IMG/VR virus record: IMGVR_UViG_3300020401_000881
Span: 1 to 23,113 of that record
Source of the DNA: a virus
Length of the DNA: 23,113 bases
Direction: 5' to 3' (one strand)
Positions 108-16,031 of this stretch are shown piece by piece. Positions within the stretch are counted from its first letter, which is position 1, and the number at the start of each line of letters is the position of its first letter. A model generated the notes under the pieces. That model was not told where the DNA came from, ran no database searches, and worked only from the letters and a program-made list of their open reading frames with translations. Position numbers and translations under genes: made by a program.

Positions 108-108
108 T

Positions 109-116
109 TATAAATA
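109..116 (+). promoter_or_regulatory. T4-type late promoter (TATAAATA), rightward
   Basis: An exact TATAAATA lies 22 bases before the ATG at 139. By T4 spacing, transcription would start near 122. The leader would then hold AGGAGA at 127-132, six bases before the start codon. The site drives the small gene at 139-456. Confidence 0.78.
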
Positions 117-138
117 AAGATAGAATAGGAGAAAAATT

Positions 139-1589: not shown

Positions 1590-2218
1590 CTTAATACTTT
1601 CTCAATTATCAATCCTGATAAATCATATTTACCTAGTCTTATTTTCTTCCAGTTTTCGTGGTGTGTATCGTGATATCCTTCACCAGCTGCAAATAAATTT
1701 ATAATATGATTGGTTACAGGTTTACCATTCTTATGACCTAATGTATTAAACAAACCATAAAATATATAACTCAATACAAAAGGCATTACAATAAAACCAA
1801 TAAAAAATTTAAAACTAATTAGTAAAGATAAAACAGCACTAATTAAATGTATTTTATTATAGTTTCTATGAAAGAACATAACTCTAGGATTTTTCAATAA
1901 ATCTTTTACTAGACTTCTCTTAATATTAGGATATTCAAACATCCATCTATTTAAAAGAACATACCAAAAACCTTTATGTTTAGGTGAGTGTGGGTCTTTT
2001 TCAGTATCAGAATATTGATGATGAGCTCTATGAGCAGCCGCCCAACCTAATGGTGATTTAGCACCTGTTAATACAATTAAATATAATATAATATTTTCTA
2101 TCATAGGAGACAATTTAAAATTTTGTCTATGAGTAAAGTATCTATGTAATCCTATTGATAAACCAAATATTGCTATTATCTGATACCAGATTGTTCCTAA
2201 AATTAATGTTTCTACCAT
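1586..2218 (-). CDS. Membrane fatty-acid (acyl) desaturase, 210 aa
   Basis: All three histidine boxes of the membrane di-iron acyl desaturases (stearoyl-CoA/delta-9 type) are present: HRYFTH at 25-30, HRAHH at 63-67 and HDTHH at 183-187. The supporting NTLGH sits at 158-162. Hydrophobic runs at about 5-22, 40-56, 125-140 and 141-157 are the expected membrane spans. The family inserts a double bond into a fatty acyl chain using O2 and an electron donor. At 210 residues it is shorter than cellular enzymes (about 300), because loops and termini are trimmed, but the catalytic core is complete. It overlaps the TauD-like gene by 7 bases and the hydroxylase-like gene by 4. Altering host membrane fluidity during infection is a reasonable inference. 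Confidence 0.93.
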   Translation of the reverse strand: MVETLILGTIWYQIIAIFGLSIGLHRYFTHRQNFKLSPMIENIILYLIVLTGAKSPLGWAAAHRAHHQYSDTEKDPHSPKHKGFWYVLLNRWMFEYPNIKRSLVKDLLKNPRVMFFHRNYNKIHLISAVLSLLISFKFFIGFIVMPFVLSYIFYGLFNTLGHKNGKPVTNHIINLFAAGEGYHDTHHENWKKIRLGKYDLSGLIIEKVLR

Positions 2219-2913
2219 ATTGCTATTCTATGCATTAGCCTTTCATTCATTTTTTCAAAGGCGTGTCTTTTATGTATTGTTAGCCATTGTTCACTAACAA
2301 CTAAATCGCCATCTTTCCAATGATGGTCGTATCTATATTTATCTTGTAAGATATGATTTTTTAAGTATTCGTATAATGTCTTTGGTATTCCGTCCATAAT
2401 CTGTAAAAAAGGAAAGAACAATCCTTTTTGACCATATTCATTTATATGAATTAATTTATATTCTTTATCTTTATTATGATGTTCTTTAAAAGTAGGGTCG
2501 TCTGTATAACCACCTCTTTTAAAACCACAAGTAAATTTTACATTATGACAATGTGCTTTTATATCATCTGGTAAATCTTCATATGCTTTCTTATTATCAA
2601 TCCAACTAGTGATACTACCCTCACTACCTTTAACTGCATAAATCCAAACTATCGAAGCTCTATTAGGGTCGCTAGGTTTATTGGCGTGCCAATCTAAAAG
2701 TTTTTTATGGCCAAACAAACCACCTTCGGTAACGTGAACTATACCTGGTAATTCTCCTTTAAATTGTTTATGTAATTCTAATTGTCTTTCGTTCTCTGGC
2801 TTTTGAACTTTACCTAAAGACTCTGCTAATTTTAATTCTTCTTCAGGACTTACTTGACCAATATTATCAACACATACTAAATCTGTAAATACTTTTTCTC
2901 TTGTTATTTCCAT
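2212..2913 (-). CDS. TauD/TfdA-like 2-oxoglutarate dioxygenase with H-A-N in place of H-x-D, 233 aa
   Basis: The overall pattern follows the TauD/TfdA (clavaminate synthase-like) oxygenases. There is a proximal motif LLDWHANKP (H76-A-N78), a central strand region IVWIYAVKGSEGSITSW, and a distal DLVVSEQWLTIHKRHAF with H214 as the second iron histidine. R225 or R229 near the C-terminus should bind the 2-oxoglutarate carboxylate. The usual H-x-D/E carboxylate ligand is an asparagine here. This could mean altered chemistry, an unusual metal site or simply a subfamily trait. The start is supported by AGGTGA about nine bases upstream, inside the end of the preceding gene (10-base overlap). The substrate is unknown. 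Confidence 0.85.
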   Translation of the reverse strand: MEITREKVFTDLVCVDNIGQVSPEEELKLAESLGKVQKPENERQLELHKQFKGELPGIVHVTEGGLFGHKKLLDWHANKPSDPNRASIVWIYAVKGSEGSITSWIDNKKAYEDLPDDIKAHCHNVKFTCGFKRGGYTDDPTFKEHHNKDKEYKLIHINEYGQKGLFFPFLQIMDGIPKTLYEYLKNHILQDKYRYDHHWKDGDLVVSEQWLTIHKRHAFEKMNERLMHRIAIW

Positions 2914-3521
2914 CTAATTAATTCACCTACTTTTTTTAAAGATTCTTCATTACATTCTACATTCATCACCATCATATAAGCATTATCTTCATATGAAAAT
3001 ATACTATGCATTTTATTTGTGTTTACAAAGTATGCTGTACCCATATTAAAATGTAAAGGTTTACCATCATACATAAAAAACATACCTGGTGGATTACAAC
3101 ATTTCAAAGGCACTAATATTCTAAAAGACTCTTGTTCACCTACGTGTCTCATATCTCTATGTGGTGGAAAAAATCCACCTCTTTTAAAATTTAAATAATG
3201 TGTTCGCCATAACCAAGGCTCAAAGGGCTCTACTAGTTTTCTTGTTTCATAACAATTCTTATATACGTCTGTAAAAGTTTTAAATGAACTTTCGTTATAT
3301 GATGTACCATTCTCTTTATTGTATTCTGCAATAGAATCTAAATCTATGCCGTTTAAACTACCGTCTAAACTGGTAACACTTAAGCCGTATCTAGGAATAT
3401 CTTTTCTGGGGTTATATCGCTTCCATTCGTATTGTTTTGTATTATACAGAAGCTTAGAGACATTACAATTTAATCTCAATTCTATAACATCACCAAAAGT
3501 CAGTAAATTATTATAATTCAT
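2904..3521 (-). CDS. 2-oxoglutarate Fe(II) oxygenase-like protein, 205 aa
   Basis: This is the first gene of the leftward operon. The C-terminal half is a double-stranded beta-helix oxygenase: H121-R-D123 in FFPPHRDMRH, then SFRILVPLK, then H172 in NTNKMHSIFS as the distal ligand. The N-terminal 100 residues are not recognised. I place the start at 3521, not at the upstream in-frame ATG at 3632. The upstream extension would read back through the promoter palindrome and into the divergent gene, while AAAGGTG lies correctly before 3521. Transcription should begin near 3545 from the late promoter at 3551-3558. The substrate is unknown, and relation to phage-encoded hydroxylases of marine T4-like phages is likely. 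Confidence 0.83.
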   Translation of the reverse strand: MNYNNLLTFGDVIELRLNCNVSKLLYNTKQYEWKRYNPRKDIPRYGLSVTSLDGSLNGIDLDSIAEYNKENGTSYNESSFKTFTDVYKNCYETRKLVEPFEPWLWRTHYLNFKRGGFFPPHRDMRHVGEQESFRILVPLKCCNPPGMFFMYDGKPLHFNMGTAYFVNTNKMHSIFSYEDNAYMMVMNVECNEESLKKVGELIRWK

Positions 3522-3526
3522 TTCAT

Positions 3527-3533
3527 CACCTTT
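3527..3533 (-). promoter_or_regulatory. Ribosome binding site AAAGGTG that fixes the start at 3521
   Basis: The minus strand reads AAAGGTG five bases before the ATG at 3521-3519. It favours this start over the in-frame ATG 111 bases further upstream, which has the promoter inside its would-be coding region. Confidence 0.65.
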
Positions 3534-3550
3534 AAAATATATGTTCCTCC

Positions 3551-3558
3551 TATTTATA
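3551..3558 (-). promoter_or_regulatory. T4-type late promoter (TATAAATA), leftward arm of a palindrome
   Basis: The plus strand reads TATTTATA, an exact late-promoter octamer on the minus strand. It is the left part of the perfect 14-bp palindrome TATTTATATAAATA (3551-3564). The expected start is near 3545, giving a leader of about 24 bases to the ATG at 3521. It should drive the five-gene oxygenase/desaturase operon. Confidence 0.75.
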
Positions 3559-3564
3559 TAAATA
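3557..3564 (+). promoter_or_regulatory. T4-type late promoter (TATAAATA), rightward arm of a palindrome
   Basis: This exact TATAAATA shares two bases with the leftward octamer. By T4 spacing the transcript would begin about six bases after the octamer, at or next to the ATG at 3570. It is the only promoter candidate I see for the twelve-gene rightward block. Confidence 0.75.
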
Positions 3565-3569
3565 TCCGT

Positions 3570-4466
3570 ATGATTAATATAGTATGTACCAGTAAACCTG
3601 GTGATGGATTGCTTTGTTATAGTTATGAGCATTGTTGTTATTTGAACTCAATAGGGATTGAAGCTCAATTGGTAATAATCACTCATTATAACTTTTCAAA
3701 AAAACATTACATAGACGCAATAACAGAAAAGTACAAAACTTGTACTAATATAATATTTGATTTCTATACACCAGAAACAAATGACATTACTTTTATATTA
3801 GGTAGAAGTATGTTAACTTTGTTATGGAAAAGTAGAGACAAATATTCTACTGACCAATTAATGACTGGTCATCTATTGTTTAATAATAAGTTAATATCTG
3901 TATATTCTGAAAATCACGTAAAAGAATATCCGATTGCACTAGAATATTTTAAACCTAAAGAAGTTTATGACTTATGCGATTATGATGTTTACCCTAATGG
4001 TGTTGGTACTCAATATGAGAAAATGATTAATTTTGAAGAGTATAAACCAGTAAAAAATGACGTTCAATTTGAGTATCTATTTTTAGGCACAAATGACGTG
4101 TATTATAAAGAGGTGGACAGATGGATAAAAGAGTGTCCTAGGTGCTTTACATCACACGGAATATTGACATATAACGAGGATTATATTATAATAGACTACA
4201 ATAATATATTTGCGCCTGTTCATAATTTACTAGGTCTTTTTAACACATATGTTTACACAAAGAACTATTATGACCCAGCGCCAAGACTTATACAAGAATG
4301 TAAATGGCTAGGTAAAAATATAGAATATTTAAGAGATAAAAATATAAAAGATGGCGGTCCTGTTTATATGAAACGACCTGTGCCTACTAAAAAGATGTAT
4401 TCAGATAATGCAAAAGTATTAGTAAAATTGATTGAGACTATAAATGAAAAAAATATTATTAGTTAG
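3570..4466 (+). CDS. Probable glycosyltransferase, GT-B-like, 298 aa
   Basis: This is the first gene of the twelve-gene plus-strand block. The N-terminus (INIVCTSKPGDGLLCYSYEH) looks like the first strand, glycine-containing loop and helix of a GT-B Rossmann half. Near residues 230-260 the run DPAPRLIQECKWLGK resembles the nucleotide-sugar binding segment of GT-B enzymes, where an acidic residue is followed by a helix. No DxD motif is evident, as expected for GT-B. No membrane segment is seen. The ATG falls almost exactly at the expected transcription start of the late promoter at 3557-3564, and no ribosome site precedes it, so translation may be leaderless. Another GT-B-fold enzyme such as an epimerase or a pseudo-transferase is possible. 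Confidence 0.7.
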   Translation: MINIVCTSKPGDGLLCYSYEHCCYLNSIGIEAQLVIITHYNFSKKHYIDAITEKYKTCTNIIFDFYTPETNDITFILGRSMLTLLWKSRDKYSTDQLMTGHLLFNNKLISVYSENHVKEYPIALEYFKPKEVYDLCDYDVYPNGVGTQYEKMINFEEYKPVKNDVQFEYLFLGTNDVYYKEVDRWIKECPRCFTSHGILTYNEDYIIIDYNNIFAPVHNLLGLFNTYVYTKNYYDPAPRLIQECKWLGKNIEYLRDKNIKDGGPVYMKRPVPTKKMYSDNAKVLVKLIETINEKNIIS

Positions 4467-5127
4467 TGGTTGTAGTTTTACAACAAGCAATTATGAATCT
4501 GCTCATCATCCTGATTTAGTAGCAGATTGGCCTAAATGGCCTGAATTGCTGGCTAAAAAATTAAATATGAGTTGTATTAACGTAGGTCAATCAGGTGCTG
4601 GTCAAGAATACATTTACAATAGTATAGTTAGAAATATAAATGCAAAAAATATAGGTTTAGTAATAGCAGGGTGGTCAAGAGCCAGTCGTAGAGATTATTA
4701 TTATGTAAATAGAAATTATTGGCACAATGATTTATGGGACGACAAAGGTGATAATCATTATTTTATAGGTAGAAGTTTAATGTTTCAATATAGTTTTCAA
4801 CAATTGTGTAAATCTTTAGGATTAAAATATAAACAAGTACAAGTAATTAATTCTTACGAAACTGCTTGTTGGGCTAATGATAAAGAAGTCTGGCCTAAAG
4901 CTAAAGGCAAAGTTTATAGTAGAAGAGAGCATTATTTACATATACAAAAAAATCCTTTATTTAATTTAATTGATAAAAACTTTATGGGTTTTCCTGGTAA
5001 AGAACTTGGTGGTTTTTGTATGCAAGATTTTTTAAAACCTGAGGATTATATATCTGAAATAGATAGACACCCTAACGCAAAAGGTCATCAAGTTATAGCG
5101 GAGGAGTTTTATGCACGGATGGGATAA
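4444..5127 (+). CDS. SGNH/GDSL-like hydrolase or acyltransferase, 227 aa
   Basis: The N-terminus ILLVSGCSFT carries the SGNH block I, with Cys in place of the usual Asp (GCS rather than GDS) and S11 as the presumed nucleophile. Block II is seen in NVGQSGAGQ (46-54). The C-terminal block V is D207-R-H209-P-N-A-K-G-H, the catalytic Asp and His. The block III Asn (GxND) is not obvious; WSRASRRD (from residue 77) takes its place. The family cleaves or transfers acyl esters, often on sugars. It overlaps the previous gene by 23 bases and lies just before a sugar aminotransferase, so a role in acylating or deacylating a glycan is the simplest inference. The substrate is unknown. Confidence 0.8.
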   Translation: MKKILLVSGCSFTTSNYESAHHPDLVADWPKWPELLAKKLNMSCINVGQSGAGQEYIYNSIVRNINAKNIGLVIAGWSRASRRDYYYVNRNYWHNDLWDDKGDNHYFIGRSLMFQYSFQQLCKSLGLKYKQVQVINSYETACWANDKEVWPKAKGKVYSRREHYLHIQKNPLFNLIDKNFMGFPGKELGGFCMQDFLKPEDYISEIDRHPNAKGHQVIAEEFYARMG

Positions 5128-6154
5128 AGAATATGAATTATACTCTGACGATTACTTAAAATTATTTGATAAAGTTATGAAACAAGAAAATCAAGAAGGT
5201 AACATTGAGTTTCTTGAAGATAGTTTATCTGATATGTTTGGTAGAAACGTTGTCGTTTGTAATAGTGGTACAGACGCACTATTCTTTTCATTATTAAAAA
5301 TAGGTGTTGGTAAAGGTGATGAAGTATTAACAACAAACTTTTCTTGGATATCAACTGCGTCTTGTATATCAATGGCTGGTGCAACACCAGTATTCTGCGA
5401 TATTAATATGCCTGATTATCATATGTCTTTAGATAGTATTAAAAGAATGTACTCTAATAAAGTAAAAGCCATAATTTATCCTCATTTATTTGGTAATATG
5501 TCTGATACTAGCAAAATAAAACAATTCTGTCAAGAGAAAAATATTCATTTTATAGAAGACGCTTGCCAATCTTTAGGTTCTAGTTTAAATGGTAATTTAG
5601 CCGGAACAATAGGTGATATTAGTACATTAAGTTTTAATGCAAATAAAGTTGTAGCTGGTGTTGCTGGTGGTGGTGCAATATTAACAAACGGCGATACAGA
5701 GATATTTAAAAGATTAAGAAAACACGGCGAACATAAACAACTAGGTTACAATTCTAAAATGTTATTGTTTAATGCTGAATTTATTAACTTTAGATTAAAA
5801 AAACTAGGTGATTATATTAAAAGAAGACAAGAACGTGCCAAATACTATGATGAAAAATTGAAAGAATATGTAACCATACAAATGACACCAGATAATTTAA
5901 ATCATAACTATCACAAATATGTAGTTAGATTTCAAAATAGAGAAGTAAGAGATAGAGTAAAGGCTAAAATAGGTCAAATACATTATGATAAACCTATTTC
6001 AGATAATATAATGTACAAAGATATTGAACATAGAAAAGATGATGATTTTATAACCAGAATAGTTTGTGATTCAATATTAACATTACCTTTACATCCTTTT
6101 ATGAAAAAAGAGGAACAAGATAAAGTAATTAATACTATATTATTATTGATATGA
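5111..6154 (+). CDS. DegT/DnrJ/EryC1/StrS-type PLP sugar aminotransferase, 347 aa
   Basis: This is a PLP-dependent aminotransferase of the family that converts keto-sugar nucleotides to amino sugars. The visible signature parts are SGTDAL (52-57, phosphate cup), EDACQSLGS (149-157, with D150 facing the pyridine nitrogen) and SFNANKVVAGVAGGGA, where K179 is the Schiff-base lysine. The protein is slightly shorter than the usual 370-400 residues, mainly in the C-terminal domain. The start is well supported by GGAGGAG ending five bases upstream, inside the SGNH gene (17-base overlap). The enzyme would need a 3- or 4-keto sugar, which the epimerase/dehydratase encoded at 13427-14155 or host enzymes could supply. 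Confidence 0.93.
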   Translation: MHGWDKEYELYSDDYLKLFDKVMKQENQEGNIEFLEDSLSDMFGRNVVVCNSGTDALFFSLLKIGVGKGDEVLTTNFSWISTASCISMAGATPVFCDINMPDYHMSLDSIKRMYSNKVKAIIYPHLFGNMSDTSKIKQFCQEKNIHFIEDACQSLGSSLNGNLAGTIGDISTLSFNANKVVAGVAGGGAILTNGDTEIFKRLRKHGEHKQLGYNSKMLLFNAEFINFRLKKLGDYIKRRQERAKYYDEKLKEYVTIQMTPDNLNHNYHKYVVRFQNREVRDRVKAKIGQIHYDKPISDNIMYKDIEHRKDDDFITRIVCDSILTLPLHPFMKKEEQDKVINTILLLI

Positions 6155-6447
6155 TAGAACATAATAAATCATTTACTCAATTTAGTTATATTGACAATAA
6201 AGGCAATATGATTGACATTACCGATAAATGCCCTATTGAGTTATGTCAAACTATGAGAAAAGTTTTAGGTGATGATATGTTTGATGAAAGTTTAGTAGAT
6301 AAAGAAGTAGAAGATATCTACCACTATTTAATTGAGAAGACTTATCAAATGCCAGATTGGGTTGATATATCTTCATACTTAACAGGTAAACCAAAAGACA
6401 AGTTATTAATAGCATTTAATACTTTCTTTTTTAAAATGATAAAATGA
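6151..6447 (+). CDS. Hypothetical small protein, 98 aa
   Basis: I do not recognise this protein. It is a small, acidic, probably helical protein, MIEHNKSFTQFSYIDNKG at the start and FFFKMIK at the end. It contains two cysteines (in KCPIELCQ) and a cluster of Asp/Glu around GDDMFDESLVDKEVED. It is joined to both neighbours by ATGA overlaps, so it is translated between the aminotransferase and the radical SAM enzyme. It could be an accessory subunit or a carrier or substrate for one of them. The DESL segment does not match the DSL phosphopantetheine site of acyl carrier proteins well enough to call it one. Confidence 0.7.
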   Translation: MIEHNKSFTQFSYIDNKGNMIDITDKCPIELCQTMRKVLGDDMFDESLVDKEVEDIYHYLIEKTYQMPDWVDISSYLTGKPKDKLLIAFNTFFFKMIK

Positions 6448-7268
6448 AAACATTTAAAGAGATTCAAGATAATTATAGAGCCATAGATTTCTTTTTATCT
6501 ATGTCGTGTAATAAAGATTGTCATTATTGTACAAGTTATACTTTAGAAATGAGAAACTTAACGGTTGATATGAATTTTTTAAAAATGTGTTTAGAATATT
6601 TAAAAAATTATAAAGTAAGAATTAACTTATTAGGTGGTGAACCAGGTCTAATCAAAAATTTAGATGAGGTTATTAATGAGATTAAAAAGTATCCTAATTT
6701 TGTATGTTCAGTATTATCAAACTCGTTTGTTAGAAAAAGATATCCTCATATATTAGAAGATAAAGATATATTATATGTTGAACATAATATATTAGATTGG
6801 TATGAGGACGAGGTTAAAAAACTAGGTAATTTTGATTATATATCAGAAAATGATAAGAATAATTTTAACGTTGTTGTTAGAACACCAAACTACTTTAAAT
6901 ACAAAGACAAATATCCTGAAGTATTAGAAAAATTGAATCATAAGAATACTATGTGGAAAGCATTTAATGGCAGGTCACCAGAATTTACAGATGTTATTCA
7001 GGCTGAAGAAATAGATAGGAAAATGTGTGCAGCTTTTCCACAGGTGCCTGTAATAGATTTTGAAAAAAGACATATTGTGCATTGTAGTAAGAAGTTTGCT
7101 AATAATAAAGAACTATCTAAAACGTTTGACTTAACGCAAGAGAATATAGATAAGATGATGAACTGGCAATTATTTAAGTATGAAAACTATTGTAAAACTT
7201 GTACAGAATGGGTACCACCAAAAGGACATTTTCCTTTTAGAAAATATGCGAAGGTGTTAAATGCATAA
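6444..7268 (+). CDS. Radical SAM enzyme with a Cys-rich C-terminus, 274 aa
   Basis: The radical SAM [4Fe-4S] motif CxxxCxxC is present as C22-NKD-C26-HY-C29. NLLGGEP (61-67) is the GGEP-type SAM-binding strand. The family cleaves SAM reductively to a 5'-deoxyadenosyl radical. Four more cysteines lie late in the protein (C195, C214, C250, C253, the last two as CKTC) and could hold a second Fe-S cluster, as in SPASM/twitch proteins, though with fewer cysteines than SPASM. The ATG overlaps the previous stop (ATGA). The context suggests a radical step on a sugar or on a small protein. The exact reaction (dehydrogenation, epimerisation or C-C bond formation) cannot be read from the sequence. Confidence 0.92.
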   Translation: MKTFKEIQDNYRAIDFFLSMSCNKDCHYCTSYTLEMRNLTVDMNFLKMCLEYLKNYKVRINLLGGEPGLIKNLDEVINEIKKYPNFVCSVLSNSFVRKRYPHILEDKDILYVEHNILDWYEDEVKKLGNFDYISENDKNNFNVVVRTPNYFKYKDKYPEVLEKLNHKNTMWKAFNGRSPEFTDVIQAEEIDRKMCAAFPQVPVIDFEKRHIVHCSKKFANNKELSKTFDLTQENIDKMMNWQLFKYENYCKTCTEWVPPKGHFPFRKYAKVLNA

Positions 7269-8748
7269 GATAACCGCTGTAGCTTTAAATTTACACGACC
7301 ATAATGTTTATGATGGCAAATTACATAAACAAATGGAAAGATATACTAGATTTAAACACAATCTACCTTATCACGCTGAGGCCTATGACCACGATAATGA
7401 TAAGTTAAATACAAATGATTACAAACTAAACAATGAATTTGTAAATGAATATTTTAAAAAGACAGATGGTGTGTTAGCATTTTCTTATACTCTAGGTGGT
7501 ATTAGAATGATAAAAGAAATTATAGATAAAGAGTTTCTTAATTTTGTACCAACTAAATTATTTGACTATGTATTTAAAGATGATATTTACTATTGTGACC
7601 ATCATCAAGCTCACGCTACATATGCTTTGATAAATTCTGACTTTGAGTTTTCAGATATACTTGCCATTGACGGAATAGGTGCTAAATTTAGATGTATATT
7701 TGTTGATAAAGATACAAATATAAAAGACTTATCAAAAGAGTTACCATTGGGGTGGTTATGGAATCAAATGTCTAAACTGACTGGATTTGGTTCATTAGGC
7801 GCAAGTAAACTAATGGGGTTAGTCGGCTATGGTAGTTTTAGTCAATACTACTATGATGTGTTTGAAACGATAATCTCCGGCGATATCCGAGAGAAGAAGT
7901 ATGATATTCATAATCTAATCAATATAGAAAAGTATGGTAAAGAAGACTTAGCATATACTCTACAAAAATTTACTTTAGATAAAATTAAAGAACATATCTA
8001 TCCACTTAAAACTTGCGAAAATCTTTGTATCGCTGGTGGTGTTGCATATAATGGTTATATGAATGAAGAGTTTTTAAATCATTATGAAAACGTATATGTA
8101 CCACCTGCCGTAGGTGATGAAGGCCAAGCATTAGGTGTTTATCAACACGCAAGTTATAATCTAAATGAAGAAGTACATAAAACAGAAACTTTTGCTGGTC
8201 AAAAATATAATTTTCCTGGTTTTATATATGCTGACTATGAAAAGATTGCAAAAGAAATTGCTAGTGGTAAAATAGTTGGTTGGTTTCAAGATAGAGCAGA
8301 AAGTGGTAATCGTGCATTAGGTAATAGAAGTATATTAGCAGACCCTAGAAATCCTAACATTAAAAATATTATTAATAGTACAATAAAAAAGAGAGAAGAT
8401 TTTAGACCATTTGCACCAGCTGTATTAGAAGAACATTATCAGGACTATTTTGATACTAGATTACCAAGTCCTTTTATGTCTCGTATATGTAAAGTTAAAT
8501 CAGATGAAGTACCTGGTATTACTCACGTTGATAATACTGCAAGAATACAAACGGTCAATAGAAAGTTTAATCAAAAGTTTTATGATATTATAAATGCATT
8601 TTACAAAGAGACAGGTGTGCCTATGTTATTAAATACAAGTTTTAATTGTCAAGAACCTATTGTAGATTCACCTGAACACGCTTTAAAAACATTTAAAAAA
8701 ACTGCATTAGATATATTAGTAATTAATGATAAGGTTATGTATAAATGA
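7261..8748 (+). CDS. NodU/TobZ-family O-carbamoyltransferase, 495 aa
   Basis: The family transfers a carbamoyl group from carbamoyl phosphate through carbamoyl-AMP to a sugar or other hydroxyl. The N-terminus shows a worn form of the family start (LHDHNVYDG with MERYTRFKHNLP). The metal site of the Kae1-like domain appears as DHHQAHA (H114, H118) plus D137 in AIDG, and AGGVAYNG (258-265) and GDEGQALG (285-292) follow. The YrdC-like catalytic part holds RAESGNRALGNRSILADPR (345-363), REDFRPFAP and LNTSFNCQEP. At 495 residues it is shorter than cellular members (about 560-600), but both domains are present. AAGGTG upstream and an 8-base overlap with the radical SAM gene support the start. Confidence 0.94.
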   Translation: MHKITAVALNLHDHNVYDGKLHKQMERYTRFKHNLPYHAEAYDHDNDKLNTNDYKLNNEFVNEYFKKTDGVLAFSYTLGGIRMIKEIIDKEFLNFVPTKLFDYVFKDDIYYCDHHQAHATYALINSDFEFSDILAIDGIGAKFRCIFVDKDTNIKDLSKELPLGWLWNQMSKLTGFGSLGASKLMGLVGYGSFSQYYYDVFETIISGDIREKKYDIHNLINIEKYGKEDLAYTLQKFTLDKIKEHIYPLKTCENLCIAGGVAYNGYMNEEFLNHYENVYVPPAVGDEGQALGVYQHASYNLNEEVHKTETFAGQKYNFPGFIYADYEKIAKEIASGKIVGWFQDRAESGNRALGNRSILADPRNPNIKNIINSTIKKREDFRPFAPAVLEEHYQDYFDTRLPSPFMSRICKVKSDEVPGITHVDNTARIQTVNRKFNQKFYDIINAFYKETGVPMLLNTSFNCQEPIVDSPEHALKTFKKTALDILVINDKVMYK

Positions 8749-9431
8749 GTACGTTTGATTTATTAGAAAAAAGACATCACGTTAGAACTTATAAAGATAA
8801 GGTGCCATCAAAAGATAAAATAGAGTTTGCATTATGGCAGGCCTGGAAAACAACACCATCTAAAAATAATTCTATGCCTTATAAAGTAATTGTTTATGGT
8901 CCTGAACATAAAGAAGAAAAAATAAAAGTTTGGAAAATGGTTGCAGAAAATCATAAAGACGCCGAAAAAAGAGCAATGAGTAGAGGTGAGGCAAAAAGAA
9001 CTGAAGGTGAAATGCCAAATCCTTTTTACGAACATATAAAATTTAATCCTTATTTGTTTTGTGTTCACGCTCAACCTAGAGAACCTAATGGTTTTTATAA
9101 AAGAAGAGTTGAACTAGGTATGTTTTTTGACCAAGCGTGGCCAAGTAGAGTTAATAGTTATATAGATACATCAGCTGTTGAAGTAGGAATGTTTATACAA
9201 AATTTATCAAGTTATTTACTTGAACAAAATATAGATGTATCATATACTTCTTGTTTTTTTAGAGATATAAAAAAATGGCACGATATAGGATTAAAAGACG
9301 CTGATTACAGACCAATAGTTTTAATGTCAGCAGGTTATAGTGAATTATATAGATATAAACAATTAAAAACTTTATATAAAGGCGTAGAAGATATTAAACC
9401 AGAGTACGAGGAGATTATTAAATGGAAATAG
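8745..9431 (+). CDS. Nitroreductase-family flavoprotein, 228 aa
   Basis: The protein follows the nitroreductase fold, usually an FMN-dependent dimer that reduces or oxidises small molecules using NAD(P)H. KRHHVRTYKDK near the start is the phosphate-binding Arg region. TTPSKNNSMPYKVIVYG (about 36-52) corresponds to the conserved PSxxNxQPW segment, with Met replacing the usual Gln. EVGMFIQNLSSYL matches the helix after the substrate pocket. A middle insertion rich in charged residues (about 65-95) is unusual. Its ATG overlaps the carbamoyltransferase stop (ATGA). It could perform a redox step in sugar synthesis; other uses of the fold include cobalamin-ligand synthesis and dehalogenation, which the context does not suggest. 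Confidence 0.82.
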   Translation: MSTFDLLEKRHHVRTYKDKVPSKDKIEFALWQAWKTTPSKNNSMPYKVIVYGPEHKEEKIKVWKMVAENHKDAEKRAMSRGEAKRTEGEMPNPFYEHIKFNPYLFCVHAQPREPNGFYKRRVELGMFFDQAWPSRVNSYIDTSAVEVGMFIQNLSSYLLEQNIDVSYTSCFFRDIKKWHDIGLKDADYRPIVLMSAGYSELYRYKQLKTLYKGVEDIKPEYEEIIKWK

Positions 9432-10021
9432 ACCTACAACTATTTAAAAATATAATGAGAGAAGGTAGACATAATACTGACCTTTTAGATTCATTTAGTC
9501 CTAATCAATTTAAATCTAAAGAAATGTTAATCAAAATGGTTAATGATTTAAATATGGTTGATAGTAATAGTGAAATAGTTATATTGGGTGGTTGGTATGG
9601 TAGTATATTAATACCTGCTTTTAAATACGTAAAAAGAATTACTTTAATTGATTTAAATGACCAAGTTATTGGTTTAGCTAAACGTAGATTATTTAATCAT
9701 TATGATAATGTAGATTTTATTACAAGTGATGTTTGGAATGAAAACAGATTAGGTAGAATACAAAATGCAAATTTAATTATTAATACATCTTGCGAACATA
9801 TGCGACCTATGAAAGAATTAAAACTAGATACAAATGCCTATTTTGCCTATCAATCAAATAATATGAGAAGTATAAAAGACCATATTAATTGTGTGGGTGG
9901 TATTGATGAGTTTCAAAAACAATTACCAGATAACGCTAGAGTTTTAGATAAAGGTATAATTGAAGATGAAAGAGGCTTGAGATTTACTCTTGTTGGAAAA
10001 TATGAAAAAATTAATTTATAG
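9422..10021 (+). CDS. SAM-dependent methyltransferase-like protein, 199 aa
   Basis: A class I methyltransferase Rossmann core is visible. Motif I is IVILGGWYGS (G56-G57-x-x-G60), the acidic end of strand 2 is LIDLND (D77), then VDFITSDVW (strand 3) and LIINTSCEHM (strand 4). Glycine-rich motif I with Trp/Tyr is unusual but fits phage members. The N-terminal 50 residues are helical. GAGGAG at 9408-9413, eight bases before the ATG, sets the start and overlaps the nitroreductase gene end. The methyl acceptor is not evident; sugar hydroxyls or amines fit the cluster. No DNA-methyltransferase DPPY/NPPY motif is present, which argues against a standard DNA N-methyltransferase. Confidence 0.82.
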   Translation: MEIDLQLFKNIMREGRHNTDLLDSFSPNQFKSKEMLIKMVNDLNMVDSNSEIVILGGWYGSILIPAFKYVKRITLIDLNDQVIGLAKRRLFNHYDNVDFITSDVWNENRLGRIQNANLIINTSCEHMRPMKELKLDTNAYFAYQSNNMRSIKDHINCVGGIDEFQKQLPDNARVLDKGIIEDERGLRFTLVGKYEKINL

Positions 10022-10829
10022 TATTTACATAGAAGTACCTGATAATGAGTTTGTTGATAATAAAAAAACAAACTTAAATACTAAAAATGAGTTTATTGAA
10101 AACTATCAAAAACTTATTGATTGTAAAAAAGAATATGCTGATATTATTGGCGCTGACTTTGTATTAGTAAATAAGTATAAAGAATATTATGATGAAATGA
10201 AAGGTAAATATCCTTTCTTAACAACTTACAACATAATAAACTTTTATAAGATATTTCTATTATATAAATTTTCATCAAAATACGACCAAATATTATATCT
10301 TGATTTTGATGTAGTGCCCAATACTAAAGAAAACTTTTTTGAAGTATTTGATTTGTCAAAAGGTATCGCTATCGCAAATAATAATAACAAGGTTGCTAGA
10401 ATAGAAGATATATCTGAAACTTCTCAAACAATTAGAAGTCCTAACTCAAAGTATTATAATGCTCAAGCAATGTTATTACATAGAGGTCTTAGCTCAGATG
10501 TTGATGTAGTTAATACAGGTATTATAGGTGTAGATAAATCTCATTTATTTCAACTAGAGTATTTTAATCAATTTGACCAAGATATGATTACAATGACACA
10601 ATTAAAATTTGATACAAGTATGTTTCCTAAAAAAATAGTAGATTACTTTGGTTATGATAATGAAACTTTGTTTAGTGTTAAGTTAAAAGAAAAAGACGTA
10701 TCTGTACAATGGCTAGATGATAAATGGCATTATTTTTTCTATGATAATTTATTCATACCTGAAGATACAAAATTAATACACGCTATCAATAAAAGATTTG
10801 ATATTGTTTGGAGAAATGTAAATGCTTAA
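10002..10829 (+). CDS. DxD glycosyltransferase, GT-A-like, 275 aa
   Basis: The metal-binding DxD motif of GT-A glycosyltransferases is seen as ILYLDFDVVPN (D101-F-D103). It is preceded by a helix-strand region (TTYNIINFYKIFLLYKF) typical of GT8/GT32-like enzymes, where the sugar-nucleotide pocket is formed. The enzyme would move a sugar from a nucleotide donor onto an acceptor, probably in the cytoplasm, because there is no signal or membrane segment. I choose the ATG at 10002. An in-frame TTG at 9990 would add four residues, but the ATG has a GGA before it and gives a natural start (MKKLIYSIYI). The gene overlaps the methyltransferase gene by 20 bases. Donor and acceptor are unknown. Confidence 0.83.
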   Translation: MKKLIYSIYIEVPDNEFVDNKKTNLNTKNEFIENYQKLIDCKKEYADIIGADFVLVNKYKEYYDEMKGKYPFLTTYNIINFYKIFLLYKFSSKYDQILYLDFDVVPNTKENFFEVFDLSKGIAIANNNNKVARIEDISETSQTIRSPNSKYYNAQAMLLHRGLSSDVDVVNTGIIGVDKSHLFQLEYFNQFDQDMITMTQLKFDTSMFPKKIVDYFGYDNETLFSVKLKEKDVSVQWLDDKWHYFFYDNLFIPEDTKLIHAINKRFDIVWRNVNA

Positions 10830-11526
10830 AATATGTACCGTATATTTTAAAGGTCTTTATACACCAGACTATGTATCTAATTTTTATAATAGTATTAGAA
10901 AGCATACTAGTGTGCCTTTTCAATCTGTATGTATTAGTGATACAGATGTTGAGGCAGATATTGTGTTACCATACAATCATTATGGTAGTATAAAAAAACA
11001 TTGGCATAAATTAAAATTTTTTAGCCCTTTATATGGTTATCAAAATCCTGGTGATGATATTATTATTATGGATATTGACCAAGTAGTTGTTAACAATATA
11101 GATGACATATTAAATCATAAAGTTAAAGATGGTGTATTATTAACTTATGACGCTTGGTGGGATAATAAGTTAGGTATTAATGGTGGTTTTTATAAATTTA
11201 AATCAGGAACTTTAAATAATATATGGGAAAAATTTGAATTAAATCCTGAATATTGGCAAAACACTTACTACGAAAGAGGTATTGTACATAAAAAATATTA
11301 TGGTGAACAAAACTATGTAAGTATGATGGCCAGAGAAAAATATAAATTAAAAAAATTACCTGGGAAAATCTTATATAAAAAATCAAATGATTTTAGAAGA
11401 GATTTAGAACTACAAAAAATATATTGTAAAAAATTTAAAACAGACTATGCAATTATGGGCGAGGCACATAAGTATATAAAGATTATACATTTTGCCGGAC
11501 CTGATAATAAAATAAAGGATATTTAA
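10822..11526 (+). CDS. DxD glycosyltransferase, GT-A-like, 234 aa
   Basis: A second GT-A-like enzyme begins with LKICTVYFKGLYTPDYV and carries IIIMDIDQVVVNNID (D84-I-D86 as DxD). KKHWHKLKFFSP before it is the expected helix. Downstream, YDAWWDNKLGINGGFYKFKSG resembles the acceptor side of such enzymes, which often have an N-G-G or N-x-G turn after a Trp-rich strand. GGAG at 10810-10813, eight bases from the ATG, supports the start; the gene overlaps its neighbour by 8 bases. It differs enough from the gene upstream to look like a separate specificity rather than a recent duplicate. The linkage formed is unknown. Confidence 0.83.
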   Translation: MLKICTVYFKGLYTPDYVSNFYNSIRKHTSVPFQSVCISDTDVEADIVLPYNHYGSIKKHWHKLKFFSPLYGYQNPGDDIIIMDIDQVVVNNIDDILNHKVKDGVLLTYDAWWDNKLGINGGFYKFKSGTLNNIWEKFELNPEYWQNTYYERGIVHKKYYGEQNYVSMMAREKYKLKKLPGKILYKKSNDFRRDLELQKIYCKKFKTDYAIMGEAHKYIKIIHFAGPDNKIKDI

Positions 11527-12396
11527 ATGGACGTTGAAACTAAAATTATGCATATGTTCTATGATTGGGACAAAGAGAGAGAAATATATAATAAAATTCA
11601 AAAATGCCAAAGAAATTGGGATTATGAAAAGTGGAATAAATTAAACCCTCTTTTAGTAGATGATATTGTTAACGAATTATTATGGATAGCAACAAATAGT
11701 CCTACTAAACAACACGAAGGATATTTTGATGTATATTATACGGCTGATAGAAAAGTAATACAAGAGATATCAAGATATACTTGGGGTTATACTCATAGAA
11801 GAAATCCTCCAGCAAACTGGAGAAACTCACAATCAAATGCTAGTATCTATATGGTATGGGTGGCAAAAGAACCTAATAGTCAATTAAACTCTCACGCTGA
11901 TGGTACTTTAAAATCTAATACAGATAAAAACAGATGGCAAAATGCCTATTGTAGTATTGGTATATCTTTAGGTCTAACAATGAAAGCAGCTGCCTCAATG
12001 GGATTTGCCACAGGTGCAAATAAAAGTCATAATGATTTAAATGGTGATGATTATTGGCCTAAAAAATTAGGTATTATGGATGACATAAAAAATGGCACTA
12101 AAGAAATATGTTATGGTTTAGGTATTGGTTATCCTAGAAATGATAAACCTCGTTGGGAATCAGATGAAACTGAATTAATGTTAGGCGCCGCTAATGGTAG
12201 TAAGATTACAACAACTGACCAAGAAACACACCCTAGAACTGGTAAAAAAATGAGAAAAGCAAAAATAGTTGATATAACTAAAAATAAAGGTCAAGTAAAA
12301 GACCCATATGGTAATACTCATAACATACCTGAAAAAGCAGAGTTTAAAATAAACTCTCATAGAAATAGAGGCATTAAGATAATAGAAATAAAATGA
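11527..12396 (+). CDS. Second nitroreductase-like protein with a basic C-terminal tail, 289 aa
   Basis: The central part fits the nitroreductase fold. IATNSPTKQHEGYFDVYY (54-71) corresponds to the flavin-binding PSxxNxQPW segment. AYCSIGISLGLTMKAAASMGF matches the dimer-interface helix that ends in a GL/GF turn. The N-terminal 40 residues and the last 60 are extra. The tail, with THPRTGKKMRKAKIVD, is strongly basic and could bind nucleic acid or an acidic polymer. The start codon follows the previous stop directly (TAAATG), with AAAGGA a few bases upstream. The protein shows little visible likeness to the nitroreductase at 8745-9431, so the two are probably not recent copies. Its reaction is unknown, and it could be a redox-inactive fold relative. 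Confidence 0.72.
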   Translation: MDVETKIMHMFYDWDKEREIYNKIQKCQRNWDYEKWNKLNPLLVDDIVNELLWIATNSPTKQHEGYFDVYYTADRKVIQEISRYTWGYTHRRNPPANWRNSQSNASIYMVWVAKEPNSQLNSHADGTLKSNTDKNRWQNAYCSIGISLGLTMKAAASMGFATGANKSHNDLNGDDYWPKKLGIMDDIKNGTKEICYGLGIGYPRNDKPRWESDETELMLGAANGSKITTTDQETHPRTGKKMRKAKIVDITKNKGQVKDPYGNTHNIPEKAEFKINSHRNRGIKIIEIK

Positions 12397-12965
12397 GAAT
12401 AATTTGTTGTAGATTTGGTGATAAGTTTACTCAATGGCACGTTGATAATTTAAAACATATGATTGATACTTATTCAGGTATCAAGTATGATAAGTTTGAG
12501 GTCATTGAAAAAGATTTATATGGTAATTGGTATAATAAACTTCAGATGTATGATATGTTTAGAGACGGTGAAAATTTATACTTTGATTTAGATGTATGTA
12601 TATTTGATAAGTTAAGACCATTAGTTAGAAAACATTTTACATTACTAGATGATTCTTGGTGGCGAGAAAAAGCTCATACACCTTTAAACTCGTCTGTCGT
12701 ATCTTGGACAGGTGATGTATCTTATATTTGGGATAAGTTTAAATCAAATGACGAATATTATTTAAAGAAATACAATAAGGGTAGTGATGAGTTTTATTAT
12801 CACGAAATTAAATACTATACTTATGGTAGACATTTTTGTTCATCAATTAAAAACTATATTCACAATAAACCTACCAAAGAAAATATGATTACTTTTGGTC
12901 AAATGCAACACCTTATGGAAAAAGGTTGGTCGGGCTGGTGGTCTAATTACTTTTTAAAATATTAA
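12393..12965 (+). CDS. Short DxD glycosyltransferase-like protein, 190 aa
   Basis: This is the last gene of the plus block. ENLYFDLDVCIFDKL gives D65-L-D67, a DxD-type metal site on a strand of a GT-A fold. NWYNKLQMYDMF before it is the typical helix. The protein is short for the family and may keep only the donor half. Later parts (HTPLNSSVVSWTGD, then a Tyr-rich stretch) resemble acceptor-side segments of the related genes upstream. The C-terminus is rich in Trp and Lys. It joins the preceding gene by ATGA and ends tail to tail with a minus-strand gene, overlapping by 23 bases. Function as the last transferase of the cluster is an inference. Confidence 0.75.
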   Translation: MRIICCRFGDKFTQWHVDNLKHMIDTYSGIKYDKFEVIEKDLYGNWYNKLQMYDMFRDGENLYFDLDVCIFDKLRPLVRKHFTLLDDSWWREKAHTPLNSSVVSWTGDVSYIWDKFKSNDEYYLKKYNKGSDEFYYHEIKYYTYGRHFCSSIKNYIHNKPTKENMITFGQMQHLMEKGWSGWWSNYFLKY

Positions 12966-13437
12966 TTGCTTTTTCTAATACTTCTAATTTAGTTTTAGAC
13001 TTTCTTAATTCTGTTTTTAAATCTTCTTGTTTTGTATCTCTGATTTTTTCTACTTCAAACAATGCAAGTTTTAAAGCAAATAAATGGTCATCATTTTCTT
13101 TATCAACAAATAATGCTTTTACTACAGCAGGAAAAAATTTAGTATCTATTCTATTATAATCAAAGACCAAACCAGATTTTTTAGCAATCAAAATAGCCTC
13201 TTCTTCAAATGCTTTTCTTTCTGCCTTTTTTTGATTATATGTGTTTTCGTGTAAATCATCAACACTTACAACTTTATTTAATGCTTGAAAGTCTGGATGT
13301 TTTGTATCGTATTCTATTATTGCGTTGAGATTTGTTTTAAAGTCTTCAGATGAATATAAGACTTCAATTATTTTTCTTTCATTATCTAAAAAATAAGCAT
13401 TTATCAAATGGTCTTTCAAATTCACTTTAGTTAACAT
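12943..13437 (-). CDS. Hypothetical coiled-coil protein, 164 aa
   Basis: I do not recognise a function. The second half (about 105-164) is a charged helix with heptad-like spacing (LFEVEKIRDTKQEDLKTELR, then more K/E/L) and should form a coiled coil. The middle has KSGLVFDYNRIDTKFFPAVV. The start is supported by AAGGAAAAT in the upstream leader. It overlaps the epimerase gene by 11 bases and the convergent glycosyltransferase gene by 23. Proteins with this general shape occur as small unknown genes in marine T4-like phages. The coiled coil suggests an assembly or scaffold-type protein rather than an enzyme. Confidence 0.75.
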   Translation of the reverse strand: MLTKVNLKDHLINAYFLDNERKIIEVLYSSEDFKTNLNAIIEYDTKHPDFQALNKVVSVDDLHENTYNQKKAERKAFEEEAILIAKKSGLVFDYNRIDTKFFPAVVKALFVDKENDDHLFALKLALFEVEKIRDTKQEDLKTELRKSKTKLEVLEKAINILKSN

Positions 13438-14155
13438 TTCTATTTTCCTTAATATAATTATATAAATTTACTTTAGGTTTCCACCCTAACCTATTTAGTG
13501 TAGTTGTATCAGCCTTGTTATCAAGTCTTTCATTTTCAACGCCTATCTTTTTCTCACAATCTATTTTAAAATAATCTATTATATCTGTAAGTTGATGAGA
13601 GTAACCTGTACCTATATCAATTACACCAGATATGTTTTCAATCATTAATGTATCTATAGCACTCATTAAATCATTAATATGAATAAAATCTCTTTTATGA
13701 TTTGTGTTTATGTAAGGTACGTCATTTCTTAAAATTCTAGGTATTAACATATTAGGTTTTGCATTAGGTCCGTAAACGGTTGTAAATCTCATACCTAAAC
13801 TATTTTCAGGTGCTATTTGTTCTATACTATATTTACTCATAGCATAAGGATTACGCCAAGGTTCCCAAGCCGTTGATGAACTAGCATATAATATTCTTGT
13901 ATCAGAAAAATAATCAAATAATCTTTGACTTGCAACTACATTTTGTTTCCAATAATCAGTTGGATTATTCATACTATCTCTGACACCAGATAGTCCTGCT
14001 AAATGTATAACTAGGTCTGCTTGAAAATGTAAATCACAGGTTAATAAATCATAACCTGAAATTTTATCTATGTTGATTAATTTATATTTTTCTTTAAGAT
14101 GATTGTATAGATTTTGACCTATAAAGCCATCACTTCCAGTTAATAATATATTCAT
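13427..14155 (-). CDS. NAD-dependent sugar epimerase/dehydratase (extended SDR), 242 aa
   Basis: This is a short extended-SDR enzyme of the GalE/RmlB type. The NAD-binding loop is GSDGFIG (7-13, GxxGxxG). LVIHLAGLSG (48-57) follows, and the catalytic set is S93/S94/T95 with Y104-A-M-S-K108 (YxxxK). MRFTTVYGPN (in the C-terminal part) is a common family motif. Family members epimerise, dehydrate or reduce nucleotide sugars. At 242 residues it lacks some of the usual C-terminal substrate domain (about 310-340). No strong ribosome site is seen before the ATG. It lies on the opposite strand from the sugar block and next to virion genes, but could supply the keto-sugar needed by the aminotransferase encoded at 5111-6154. 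Confidence 0.9.
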   Translation of the reverse strand: MNILLTGSDGFIGQNLYNHLKEKYKLINIDKISGYDLLTCDLHFQADLVIHLAGLSGVRDSMNNPTDYWKQNVVASQRLFDYFSDTRILYASSSTAWEPWRNPYAMSKYSIEQIAPENSLGMRFTTVYGPNAKPNMLIPRILRNDVPYINTNHKRDFIHINDLMSAIDTLMIENISGVIDIGTGYSHQLTDIIDYFKIDCEKKIGVENERLDNKADTTTLNRLGWKPKVNLYNYIKENRNVN

Positions 14156-14164: not shown

Positions 14165-15109
14165 TTAAGTTGTTTTTTGTATTTTCAAAAAATATGTGCT
14201 TATTGTTGTTGCTGTTCCGTCAGGAAACTCTTGAGCTCTGTAATCATTTGTGTTAACATATCTTGTTTGATAATTACCAGAACCACCTGTTAATCTTGTA
14301 TCTATCATACCTGAGCCAACGTTTGTTCCTGTGCCATTTATGTTATATCTAATTTTATATCCGCCTGTACTATCAATTGTTTCATTTCTCATTAACTCAT
14401 TAGCTATTGTATTAACCTCTGATAATGTAAACTCTTGTATATCATTATCACCTCTTATCTTTAATGGCAATACTGAAAGACTAGGTGATGATATTGTATT
14501 CTTTTTTAAATAATAACTATTGATTGTTGTAGGTTGGTCTTGAGTCTCTCCAATACCGCTTGAAGTATAAGCAGATACGTTTGCTCTTGTATCTAAAAAA
14601 ACTGGTGTGCTAGAAACTAAAGATTCATCACCAGAAGCTGTTGAATTAGTATCAATAAAATATGTTCCTGCTTGTTGATTAGTATTACTACCATTTGTTA
14701 ATTCATCAATTACAGGTCTAACAATACTATCTAAAACATCTTGATATGTCATTGCTTGAATATTTGCGTCATCATCAATATAACAAAAATATCTTTTACC
14801 ATCATCACTTGTAATTGATGGAGCAGAAGCTATGGTTTGATTTATTTTTGCGTATGATACTGAAACTTGGGAAGGTTCATTTGTTTCAGCTTCAGTAGAA
14901 AATCTATCGGTTCTTGTAGTAGAGGCACCCGCCTGCATACGTGTATCAGTAATTGTGCCTAAATTACCACCACTTCCTACTACCGATAATCCTATTGGAA
15001 CTGCTTGTTGAAATTCGTATCTGAATCTATCTTTTAATAAACCAAACATAGTATCATCCATTTGCTGGATGTTACCGTTATTTAAGTAAACTGGTCTTCT
15101 TACTGCCAT
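14165..15109 (-). CDS. Virion structural protein (tail/baseplate-associated), 314 aa
   Basis: The protein begins MAVRRPVYLNNGNIQQMDD and is rich in Ser, Thr, Asn and Gly, as are beta-structured tail proteins of marine T4-like phages. There is no signal peptide or membrane segment and no enzymatic motif. The C-terminal half has alternating short strands, with repeated N/T-rich turns (SGGNLG, GSGNYQTRYVNTND). It is transcribed in line with the other structural genes, between the fibre-like gene at 15128-16030 and the epimerase gene. A weak GGAATT precedes the start. I cannot match it to a named T4 protein with confidence. A role as fibre adaptor or baseplate decoration fits the position. Confidence 0.78.
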   Translation of the reverse strand: MAVRRPVYLNNGNIQQMDDTMFGLLKDRFRYEFQQAVPIGLSVVGSGGNLGTITDTRMQAGASTTRTDRFSTEAETNEPSQVSVSYAKINQTIASAPSITSDDGKRYFCYIDDDANIQAMTYQDVLDSIVRPVIDELTNGSNTNQQAGTYFIDTNSTASGDESLVSSTPVFLDTRANVSAYTSSGIGETQDQPTTINSYYLKKNTISSPSLSVLPLKIRGDNDIQEFTLSEVNTIANELMRNETIDSTGGYKIRYNINGTGTNVGSGMIDTRLTGGSGNYQTRYVNTNDYRAQEFPDGTATTISTYFLKIQKTT

Positions 15110-15127
15110 AATAAAATTCCATTTCTA

Positions 15128-16030: not shown

Positions 16031-16031
16031 T

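Follow-up and report, generated by a model that had tools for sequence, protein, structure and literature searches.

The DNA analysed here is a 23,113-base virus record (IMG/VR record IMGVR_UViG_3300020401_000881), referred to in its full length as the window, with a guanine-plus-cytosine (GC) content of 25-37% in 1-kb steps. Its virus is pelagimyophage-like, the pelagimyophages being T4-like relatives that infect SAR11 bacteria, and its own host is presumably a SAR11 bacterium as well. The subject of this report is a cassette of twelve plus-strand open reading frames (ORFs), designated genes A to L, that occupies positions 3570-12965 between flanking minus-strand genes and has zero intergenic bases. 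The junctions from A to L measure -23, -17, -4, -4, -8, -4, -10, -32, -8, 0 and -4 bases, and the H/I junction of -32 becomes -20 if gene I begins at the invariant Met at ORF residue 5. An earlier reading of the DNA, made without database searches (the sequence-only reading), had described twelve ORFs between these limits without intergenic DNA, and all of the junctions do overlap or abut.

Relatives of the cassette were drawn from two scans of IMG/VR, one with gene E (155 relatives, 80 loci kept) and one with gene K (14 loci). Removal of re-fetched contigs, of phage HTVC008M and of loci with an identical E reduced 97 loci to 66, including that of Pelagibacter phage Mosig EXVC030M. The 28 loci holding both A and L are called complete, which means that A and L are present in them by construction, and the presence of E and K is partly due to selection, since the loci were found through these genes. 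The order A-C-E-F-H-I-J-L is identical in 27 of the 28 complete loci, and for this reason we do not regard the cassette as a chance grouping. Genes C, E, H, I and J occur in all 28, F in 27, B in 26, G in 22, K in 20 and a separate D in 10. Both nitroreductases (G and K) are dispensable; they vary in presence and copy number, and one or the other stands at another place in some relatives. In some loci (e.g. L016, L019, L042, L045 and L049) the whole cassette is inverted relative to its neighbours. Mean pairwise distances for E, F and L (0.18, 0.22 and 0.24) are smaller than those for the neighbouring genes 14165, 15128 and 16032 (0.41, 0.52 and 0.43), and distances correlate for most pairs of genes in this region, the nitroreductases correlating weakly with the rest. 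Ratios of nonsynonymous to synonymous substitution (dN/dS), determined against three loci, are low for most genes, as expected under purifying selection, with values for B, G and J of up to 0.75, 0.60 and 0.61 in some comparisons. Gene E is the most conserved of the twelve, its ratios (0.036, 0.061 and 0.066) being the lowest in each of the three comparisons. The pathway-like character that the sequence-only reading had attributed to the set is borne out by the shared order, by the invariant catalytic motifs described below and by purifying selection on most of the genes. Its expectation of conserved co-occurrence holds for the core, which is not shuffled among relatives, and less well for the nitroreductases; the count of twelve was too generous, because D is part of the aminotransferase and because relatives can lack G or K, in some cases B and in one case F.

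Gene C (5111-6154, plus strand) encodes the main body of a pyridoxal phosphate (PLP)-dependent aminotransferase of the DegT/DnrJ/EryC1 family (Pfam DegT, E = 7e-69). Among proteins of solved structure, its best matches are aminotransferases of sugars and cyclitols, perosamine synthetases included, led by an entry deposited as glutamine--scyllo-inositol transaminase (7b0d, 4e-73) and followed by QdtB (2e-63) and WbpE (8e-54); it is also near the PseC and LegC models, with scores under their cut-offs. QdtB, WbpE and the perosamine synthetases serve bacterial surface sugars. Both D150 and K179 are invariant, the latter, which we take to be the PLP-binding lysine, in 20 sequences. Gene D (6151-6447, plus strand, 98 residues), which overlaps C by 4 bases, had been listed in the sequence-only reading as a further "small protein" of the cassette, and that entry has to be withdrawn. 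Residues ~30-95 of D match residues ~350-417 of DegT proteins of 418-424 residues in relatives (E down to 4e-18). Because D matches the C-terminal 60-80 residues of such longer proteins, and because C and D are fused in many relatives (18 of the 28 complete loci, the other 10 having them separate), we identify D as the aminotransferase's C-terminal module, here detached. Over all 66 loci, C and D are fused in 40 and separate in 18, with C absent or truncated in 8, and loci with a separate D mostly carry a C of about 346-364 residues. The position of this small ORF beside a radical-enzyme gene had suggested a precursor of a ribosomally synthesized and post-translationally modified peptide (RiPP), a candidate rejected on its identity as the aminotransferase module.

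Gene E (6444-7268, plus strand) encodes a radical S-adenosylmethionine (SAM) enzyme, possibly with one twitch-type auxiliary cluster. Its Radical_SAM match (9e-8) scores 32.8 bits against a cut-off of 29.5, and the CxxxCxxC motif of the superfamily lies within the domain. Seven cysteines are invariant, namely C22, C26 and C29 of that motif and C195, C214, C250 and C253. The latter four would be compatible with a single four-cysteine auxiliary cluster of the kind found in BtrN, a two-electron dehydrogenase that oxidizes an aminocyclitol; according to the available part of PMC9012708, twitch domains bind one auxiliary cluster, through four cysteines in BtrN and three in MoaA. A Foldseek search with the predicted structure of E, a low-confidence model (mean predicted local distance difference test, pLDDT, 68.8), placed BtrN first (5e-5, template modelling (TM) score 0.42), the sequence match to BtrN having an E-value of 0.15. 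With VIA-align, BlsE, SuiB, anSME, BtrN, ChlB and viperin-like enzymes were all close (Z 10.2-9.1). A viperin-like E is a less favoured possibility: this group is structurally level with the SPASM/twitch enzymes and gives weak profile matches (0.007-0.034); the NCBIfam viperin model matches at 9e-8 with 31.6 bits against a 180-bit cut-off, behind a putative QueE model at 3e-8.

The 495-residue product of gene F (7261-8748, plus strand) is an O-carbamoyltransferase of the NodU/TobZ type, for which the Carbam_trans_C (3e-65, 219.2 versus 27 bits) and Carbam_trans_N (6e-19, 69.2 versus 24 bits) matches both exceed the curated cut-offs. Its closest relatives in the PDB are the antibiotic O-carbamoyltransferases decarbamoylnovobiocin carbamoyltransferase, GdmN and TobZ. 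Residues H114, H118, D137, R351, R382 and S460 are invariant in 19 sequences, and H114, H118 and D137 presumably form the HxxxH-plus-Asp metal motif of Kae1 and TobZ. Gene H (9422-10021, plus strand), a core gene, encodes a class I SAM methyltransferase recognized mainly through matches of its family members, those of the window's own copy being weak: Spermine_synth is matched by 17 of 23 members and Methyltransf_25 by 12 of 23, MJ0882 is matched at 2e-6, and G56, G60 and D77 are invariant.

Four further core genes resemble glycosyltransferases. Gene A (3570-4466, plus strand, 298 residues) has no match in the family profile searches, and its product is predicted to have a GT-B fold over its full length: the model (pLDDT 91.7) aligns with PimA over 262 of 298 residues (Z 16.0, root mean square deviation 4.2), and many other GT-B enzymes fall within 1-3 Z units of PimA. 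Foldseek gave weaker matches for A (best 7e-5, TM 0.38); a viral fold search with A also found a 974-residue viral protein, 52% identical. Gene I (9990-10829, plus strand, with a probable start at 10002, the ATG of ORF residue 5) is GT8-like, matching Glyco_transf_8 at 2e-4, under the cut-off; 9 of 22 family members match that profile, and the DxD motif D105-D107 is invariant. Genes J (10822-11526) and L (12393-12965), both on the plus strand, are phage glycosyltransferase genes that match the "glycosyltransferase" family phrog_1962 at 9e-15 and 6e-6, respectively, with invariant DxD motifs at D84-D86 and D65-D67; none of 17 members of the J family has a Pfam match. A hydropathy scan of the twelve cassette proteins found no membrane segment (highest 19-residue mean 1.45), which fits assembly of the product in the cytoplasm.

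The remaining genes are less constant. Gene B (4444-5127, plus strand) encodes an SGNH/GDSL-like hydrolase or acyltransferase, with a Lipase_GDSL_2 match (4e-4) under the cut-off and matches for 6 of 20 family members. S11, D207 and H209 are invariant as candidate Ser, Asp and His residues, and the block-III Asn is not clear by eye. Gene G (8745-9431, plus strand) encodes a nitroreductase-family flavoprotein (Pfam, 2e-10), and gene K (11527-12396, plus strand) a diverged nitroreductase-like protein whose own match is marginal (0.08), 15 of 22 family members matching at E <= 0.01. The family assignments of the sequence-only reading, including GT-B for gene A, were thus right in outline apart from the small protein; to judge from their residues, the active sites look intact and no core gene is visibly inactive.

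Relatives also carry further genes inserted inside the cassette. A protein of ~210 residues with a CxxxCxxC motif stands beside a cysteine-rich protein of ~120 residues in 38 adjacent pairs at 29 of the 66 loci (e.g. L064, L077 and L043). Pfam matches were found for neither of two ~210-residue proteins scanned, and SPASM was matched at 0.008 by one of two small partners. The ~210-residue proteins cluster with proteins of 350-374 residues that match both Radical_SAM and SPASM, the two parts are fused in L070, and the adjacent ORFs are probably, from their sequences, split radical-SAM enzymes. A different radical-SAM/SPASM protein of ~470 residues (7e-11) is fused to F in three ORFs (L051, L079 and L080), that of L080 (7912-10818) being a 968-residue radical-SAM/SPASM-carbamoyltransferase. 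Other inserts are proteins with an SGGIDSA motif, which we take to mark ATP-PPi enzymes and which these proteins resemble (Pfam match in none of two scanned). A fixed core with swapped tailoring enzymes might be what antigen-like diversity of a glycan would look like.

To the right of the cassette the minus strand carries genes 12943, 13427, 14165, 15128 (weakly tail-fibre-like), 16032 (virion structural), 16253 (2096 residues) and 22559, the last for a gp6-like baseplate wedge protein (4e-41), so that the cassette does lie close to tail genes, as had been proposed. The product of 16253 matches phrog_358 and is VrlC by its match to Mosig, with whose VrlC region the right part of the window aligns; family matches assign no function to 12943 and 14165. 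Gene 13427 (13427-14155, minus strand), which faces the cassette, encodes a nucleotide-sugar epimerase/dehydratase-like protein of the short-chain dehydrogenase/reductase (SDR) type (Epimerase 4e-23, phrog_540 1.5e-42). It is a possible supplier of the precursor and not an obligatory one, as it has no match at the corresponding place in L008, L012, L028 and L034. In Mosig, neck-protein genes lie at 38.0-39.6 kb, the cassette at 61-71 kb and VrlC at 74.6-80.8 kb, which puts the cassette between VrlC and the neck gene gp14 and hence within the host recognition cluster (HRC) of pelagimyophages; the window ends before any neck gene. Mosig (MT647606.1) also has a second cluster of glycosyltransferase, sulfotransferase and methyltransferase genes at 124.8-130.7 kb, far from the host recognition cluster. 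The left part of the window holds, on the minus strand, genes for an aspartyl-hydroxylase, a desaturase and an oxygenase of the TauD type, together with one unassigned ORF and one more gene without an assignment. From 446 to 3632 these make up a divergent, oxygenase-rich operon (aspartyl-hydroxylase, TauD, a desaturase-like membrane protein and gene 2904, the last showing an HxD-type pattern on visual inspection). Relatives differ in the content of this operon, the Mosig version adding aminotransferase, FMN (flavin mononucleotide) reductase and peroxiredoxin genes. The GC content per kb is 25-31% in this operon and the cassette (1-13000) versus 32-37% in the structural genes (15001-23000).

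The palindrome TATTTATATAAATA lies at 3551-3564, between gene A and the divergent gene 2904-3632; each of its strands carries the T4-type late-promoter core TATAAATA, in agreement with the late promoter placed here by the sequence-only reading. The window's only other occurrence of TATAAATA is near 100-116, again on both strands and upstream of the ORF at 139-456. The listed start of 2904-3632 overlaps gene A and the late motif, and an in-frame internal Met in its translation makes a start near 3521 likely. The comparison of upstream regions comprised 39 rows and 38 distinct regions ahead of A, the window's being identical to that of L001; the regions are related, so that the counts are not independent. 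The late motif is present in 15 of the 38 regions (16 of 39 rows; shuffle mean 2.6, maximum 7), and a strong sigma70-type promoter, defined as an exact TATAAT with at most one mismatch in TTGACA, in 13 of 38 (shuffle mean 0.15, maximum 2). With two mismatches in TTGACA allowed, the latter count rises to 17 (shuffle mean 1.07, maximum 4). These strong promoters often end 5-7 bases ahead of the start codon of A, and their presence in 13 of 38 regions suggests use of the host polymerase, as an early change of the host surface would need. The detection of middle and late promoters used for cyanophages is described as unsatisfactory in pelagimyophages in the available text of PMC7029224.

A search of 50,697 phage records (tblastn, E <= 1e-5) returned Mosig as the sole match to A, E or J; the phage and viral searches may omit the window's own genome and records close to it. 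The F family is wider, with matches in 134 phage records, mostly of cyanophages and all but one below 60% identity, and other phage copies are 29-34% identical to F among the 40 of these 134 records listed. As a host sample we used 197 genomes from the family of a Candidatus Pelagibacter metagenome-assembled genome (MAG), themselves a sample of a larger group. Genes A, E and J were not found in 196 of them, and the sole carrier has them on the cassette contig itself, the genes searched for there being A, E, J and F. An F-family carbamoyltransferase is present in 113 of the 197. Ten host carbamoyltransferase regions held an F-like gene in all ten, DegT in four and an epimerase-like gene in six, with no match to A, E, G, J, K or L; the F-family, DegT and epimerase-like genes make carbamoylated surface sugars plausible in the host. 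Two of the host-family loci (L108 and L109) have two tandem carbamoyltransferase genes. A scan of genome contigs with E found three MAG contigs, L098, L099 and L100, labelled Pelagibacter, Rhodobiaceae and Gammaproteobacteria. L099 holds the phage neighbours m to q and L100 holds m and o; L098 is short, with cassette genes only. A cellular source of the cassette was rejected, the three being read as phage contigs binned into MAGs, in the case of L098 by similarity only. Phage HTVC008M, grown on strain HTCC1062 as was Mosig, has no A, E or J, and infection of this strain therefore does not require them.

We tentatively favour, with a confidence that falls a little short of even, a phage-borne glycan-tailoring operon in the pelagimyophage host recognition cluster with a host surface oligosaccharide as its acceptor; the substrates, the order of steps, the acceptor and the benefit proposed here go beyond the gene content itself. 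The starting sugar would be host-supplied or SDR-modified, either as a nucleotide sugar or as a residue already attached. E might oxidize a hydroxyl of this sugar to a ketone, C with D would convert the ketone to an amine by means of PLP, F would add a carbamoyl group to a hydroxyl, and H would methylate N or O. B may put on or take off an acyl group, and G and K might provide optional flavin redox steps. A short chain would then be built and attached in the cytoplasm by A (GT-B) together with I, J and L (DxD). Its likeliest acceptor would be a host surface oligosaccharide resembling a lipopolysaccharide (LPS) core, whose alteration during infection would keep competing phages from binding. 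The amino- and carbamoyl-bearing sugar of the sequence-only reading follows from the sugar-aminotransferase and antibiotic O-carbamoyltransferase families of C and F, and its substrate, product and acceptor are conjecture. A bolder proposal, which we consider doubtful, is that marine phages evolved an aminoglycoside-like sugar pathway of their own, not derived from the host and diversified by swapping split radical-SAM/SPASM modules into a fixed core, to give a virus-encoded serotype system that rewrites the host surface.

Several observations count against the operon for the host surface. The model of E is poor, and BlsE, peptide-modifying SPASM enzymes and viperin-like enzymes (Z 9.0-10.2) fit it about as BtrN does (9.5). 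No obvious sugar-nucleotide synthesis gene was seen except the facing epimerase-like one, itself absent in some loci; L034 keeps the other core genes without a match for F, its sole difference from the common order. A looser sigma70 scan matched 21 of 38 regions where 22% is expected by chance, and weak matches mean little. Mosig came from an impure culture with two phages, so that its host assignment rests on a mixed lysate (PMC7892664, available part). Two further points suit decoration of the virion: in the window only a late-type motif precedes A, and in 9 of 38 regions A follows neighbour m on the same strand, behind tail-side genes. The strongest rival is accordingly that the same sugar pathway decorates Ser/Thr-rich virion proteins encoded by adjacent genes (e.g. 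14165-16030) and so changes adhesion or shields the virion. To this serious rival we give a minority chance, unlikely on balance. The cassette adjoins structural genes, the late-type motif recurs in the 15 regions counted above, no membrane protein would be needed, and the distances of J and F correlate with those of neighbour 14165 (r 0.70 and 0.73). The correlation loses force because correlated distances are the rule among gene pairs in this region, as common descent would produce, and because no function is assigned to 14165; moreover, E, F and L are more conserved than 14165, 15128 and 16032, and the strong sigma70-type promoters stand alone or beside the late motif.

Improbable, in our judgement, is a small secreted or intracellular compound, aminoglycoside-like or a modified peptide, whose synthesis, like that in antibiotic clusters, would draw on radical-SAM/SPASM, nitroreductase and ATP-PPi-like enzymes. 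Natural-product pathways are indeed the source of the nearest solved relatives of F and of several of those of E, and relatives of the cassette add SPASM radical-SAM and SGGIDSA proteins, but four core genes are glycosyltransferase-like, the twelve proteins include no membrane exporter, and no RiPP precursor gene was found in the window's cassette, where the sole small ORF is the aminotransferase module and no intergenic base is left for one. Still less credit is due to hypermodification of the phage genome with base-attached, carbamoylated and aminated sugars, DNA being an unlikely acceptor. Pathways of DNA hypermodification use PLP, radical-SAM, carbamoyl- and glycosyltransferase enzymes, as the cassette may; the many structural matches of gene A include a DNA alpha-glucosyltransferase (1y6f, Z 13.9), and Mosig has a putative adenine methyltransferase. 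The usual source of hydroxymethyl bases is a deoxynucleoside monophosphate hydroxymethylase of the thymidylate synthase family, and no gene of that family was found in seven records, Mosig and six fragments, a result that bears mainly on Mosig. ThyX is present in Mosig alone of the seven, and the six shorter contigs may simply miss that part of the genome; Mosig is rated 75.73% complete (PMC7892664). Partner genes for such modification are described in pelagipodophages (PMC9599517, available part), but in the text seen of PMC7029224 only one of >100 SAR11 genomes codes for restriction-modification. Lastly, unlinked auxiliary genes gathered without a joint pathway are strongly disfavoured, to the point of being nearly negligible. 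The island is hypervariable according to PMC7029224, G, K and the radical modules are present in some relatives and absent or displaced in others, and the dN/dS values of B, G and J are raised in some comparisons, but the core order is shared, most ratios are low, and both C-D (40 of 66 loci) and radical-SAM-F (three ORFs) fusions occur.

The operon for the host surface would be of interest because SAR11 bacteria rank among the most abundant on Earth and because the myophages that infect them are difficult to grow in culture. A cultured carrier, Mosig, and three core genes absent from the searched host-family genomes would make it possible to test directly whether glycans of the host or the virion are remodelled by marine phages, and the radical-SAM, carbamoyltransferase and two-piece aminotransferase enzymes of the cassette may have new specificities. 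In the tailoring of Nod factors, NodU and NodS carbamoylate and methylate an amino sugar. The cassette recalls this system through the NodU match of F (2e-33) and the weak NodS match of H (0.0018), but both lie far below the family cut-offs and no NodABC was recognized. Gtr-type O-antigen conversion, by contrast, uses a membrane flippase and a membrane glucosyltransferase, and the lack of any transmembrane-like segment in the twelve proteins argues against such a periplasmic system. The aminocyclitol logic of the butirosin and nebramycin systems (BtrN, a DegT aminotransferase and TobZ) employs the same families for radical oxidation, transamination and O-carbamoylation, whereas the cassette is distant in sequence (as for BtrN above), rich in glycosyltransferases and phage-borne, and no cyclitol synthase was recognized among its twelve genes. 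Among marine T4-like phages, large cyanophages carry LPS gene clusters and carbamoyltransferases (PMC3037559, available part), and HTVC008M has a stretch of similar content, with carbamoyltransferase, glycosyltransferase and methyltransferase genes; with that stretch only F is clearly in common (3e-53), the E match being borderline (9e-4).

The sequence-only reading knew of no named phage pathway with this exact set. An ordered cassette with a split aminotransferase and modular radical enzymes was indeed not found described in the open literature, supplements, subscription papers and preprints lying outside the search; the available parts of PMC9599517, PMC9004378 and PMC9238414 do not mention the cassette, nor does that of the Mosig announcement (PMC7892664) discuss its genes. 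Much of the setting is already in print, including glycosyltransferases, radical-SAM genes and a proposed surface change. As far as the text seen of PMC7029224 goes, the pelagimyophage host recognition cluster is a hypervariable, non-syntenic island with glycosyltransferases and radical-SAM cassettes, for which a change of the host surface that avoids coinfection has been proposed. The cassette resembles this island in its place beside VrlC, in its glycosyltransferases, one of GT8 type, in its radical-SAM enzymes and in a possible change of the O-chain against coinfection (PMC7029224), and differs from it in having a core of fixed order, with a split aminotransferase, into which radical-SAM modules can be swapped.

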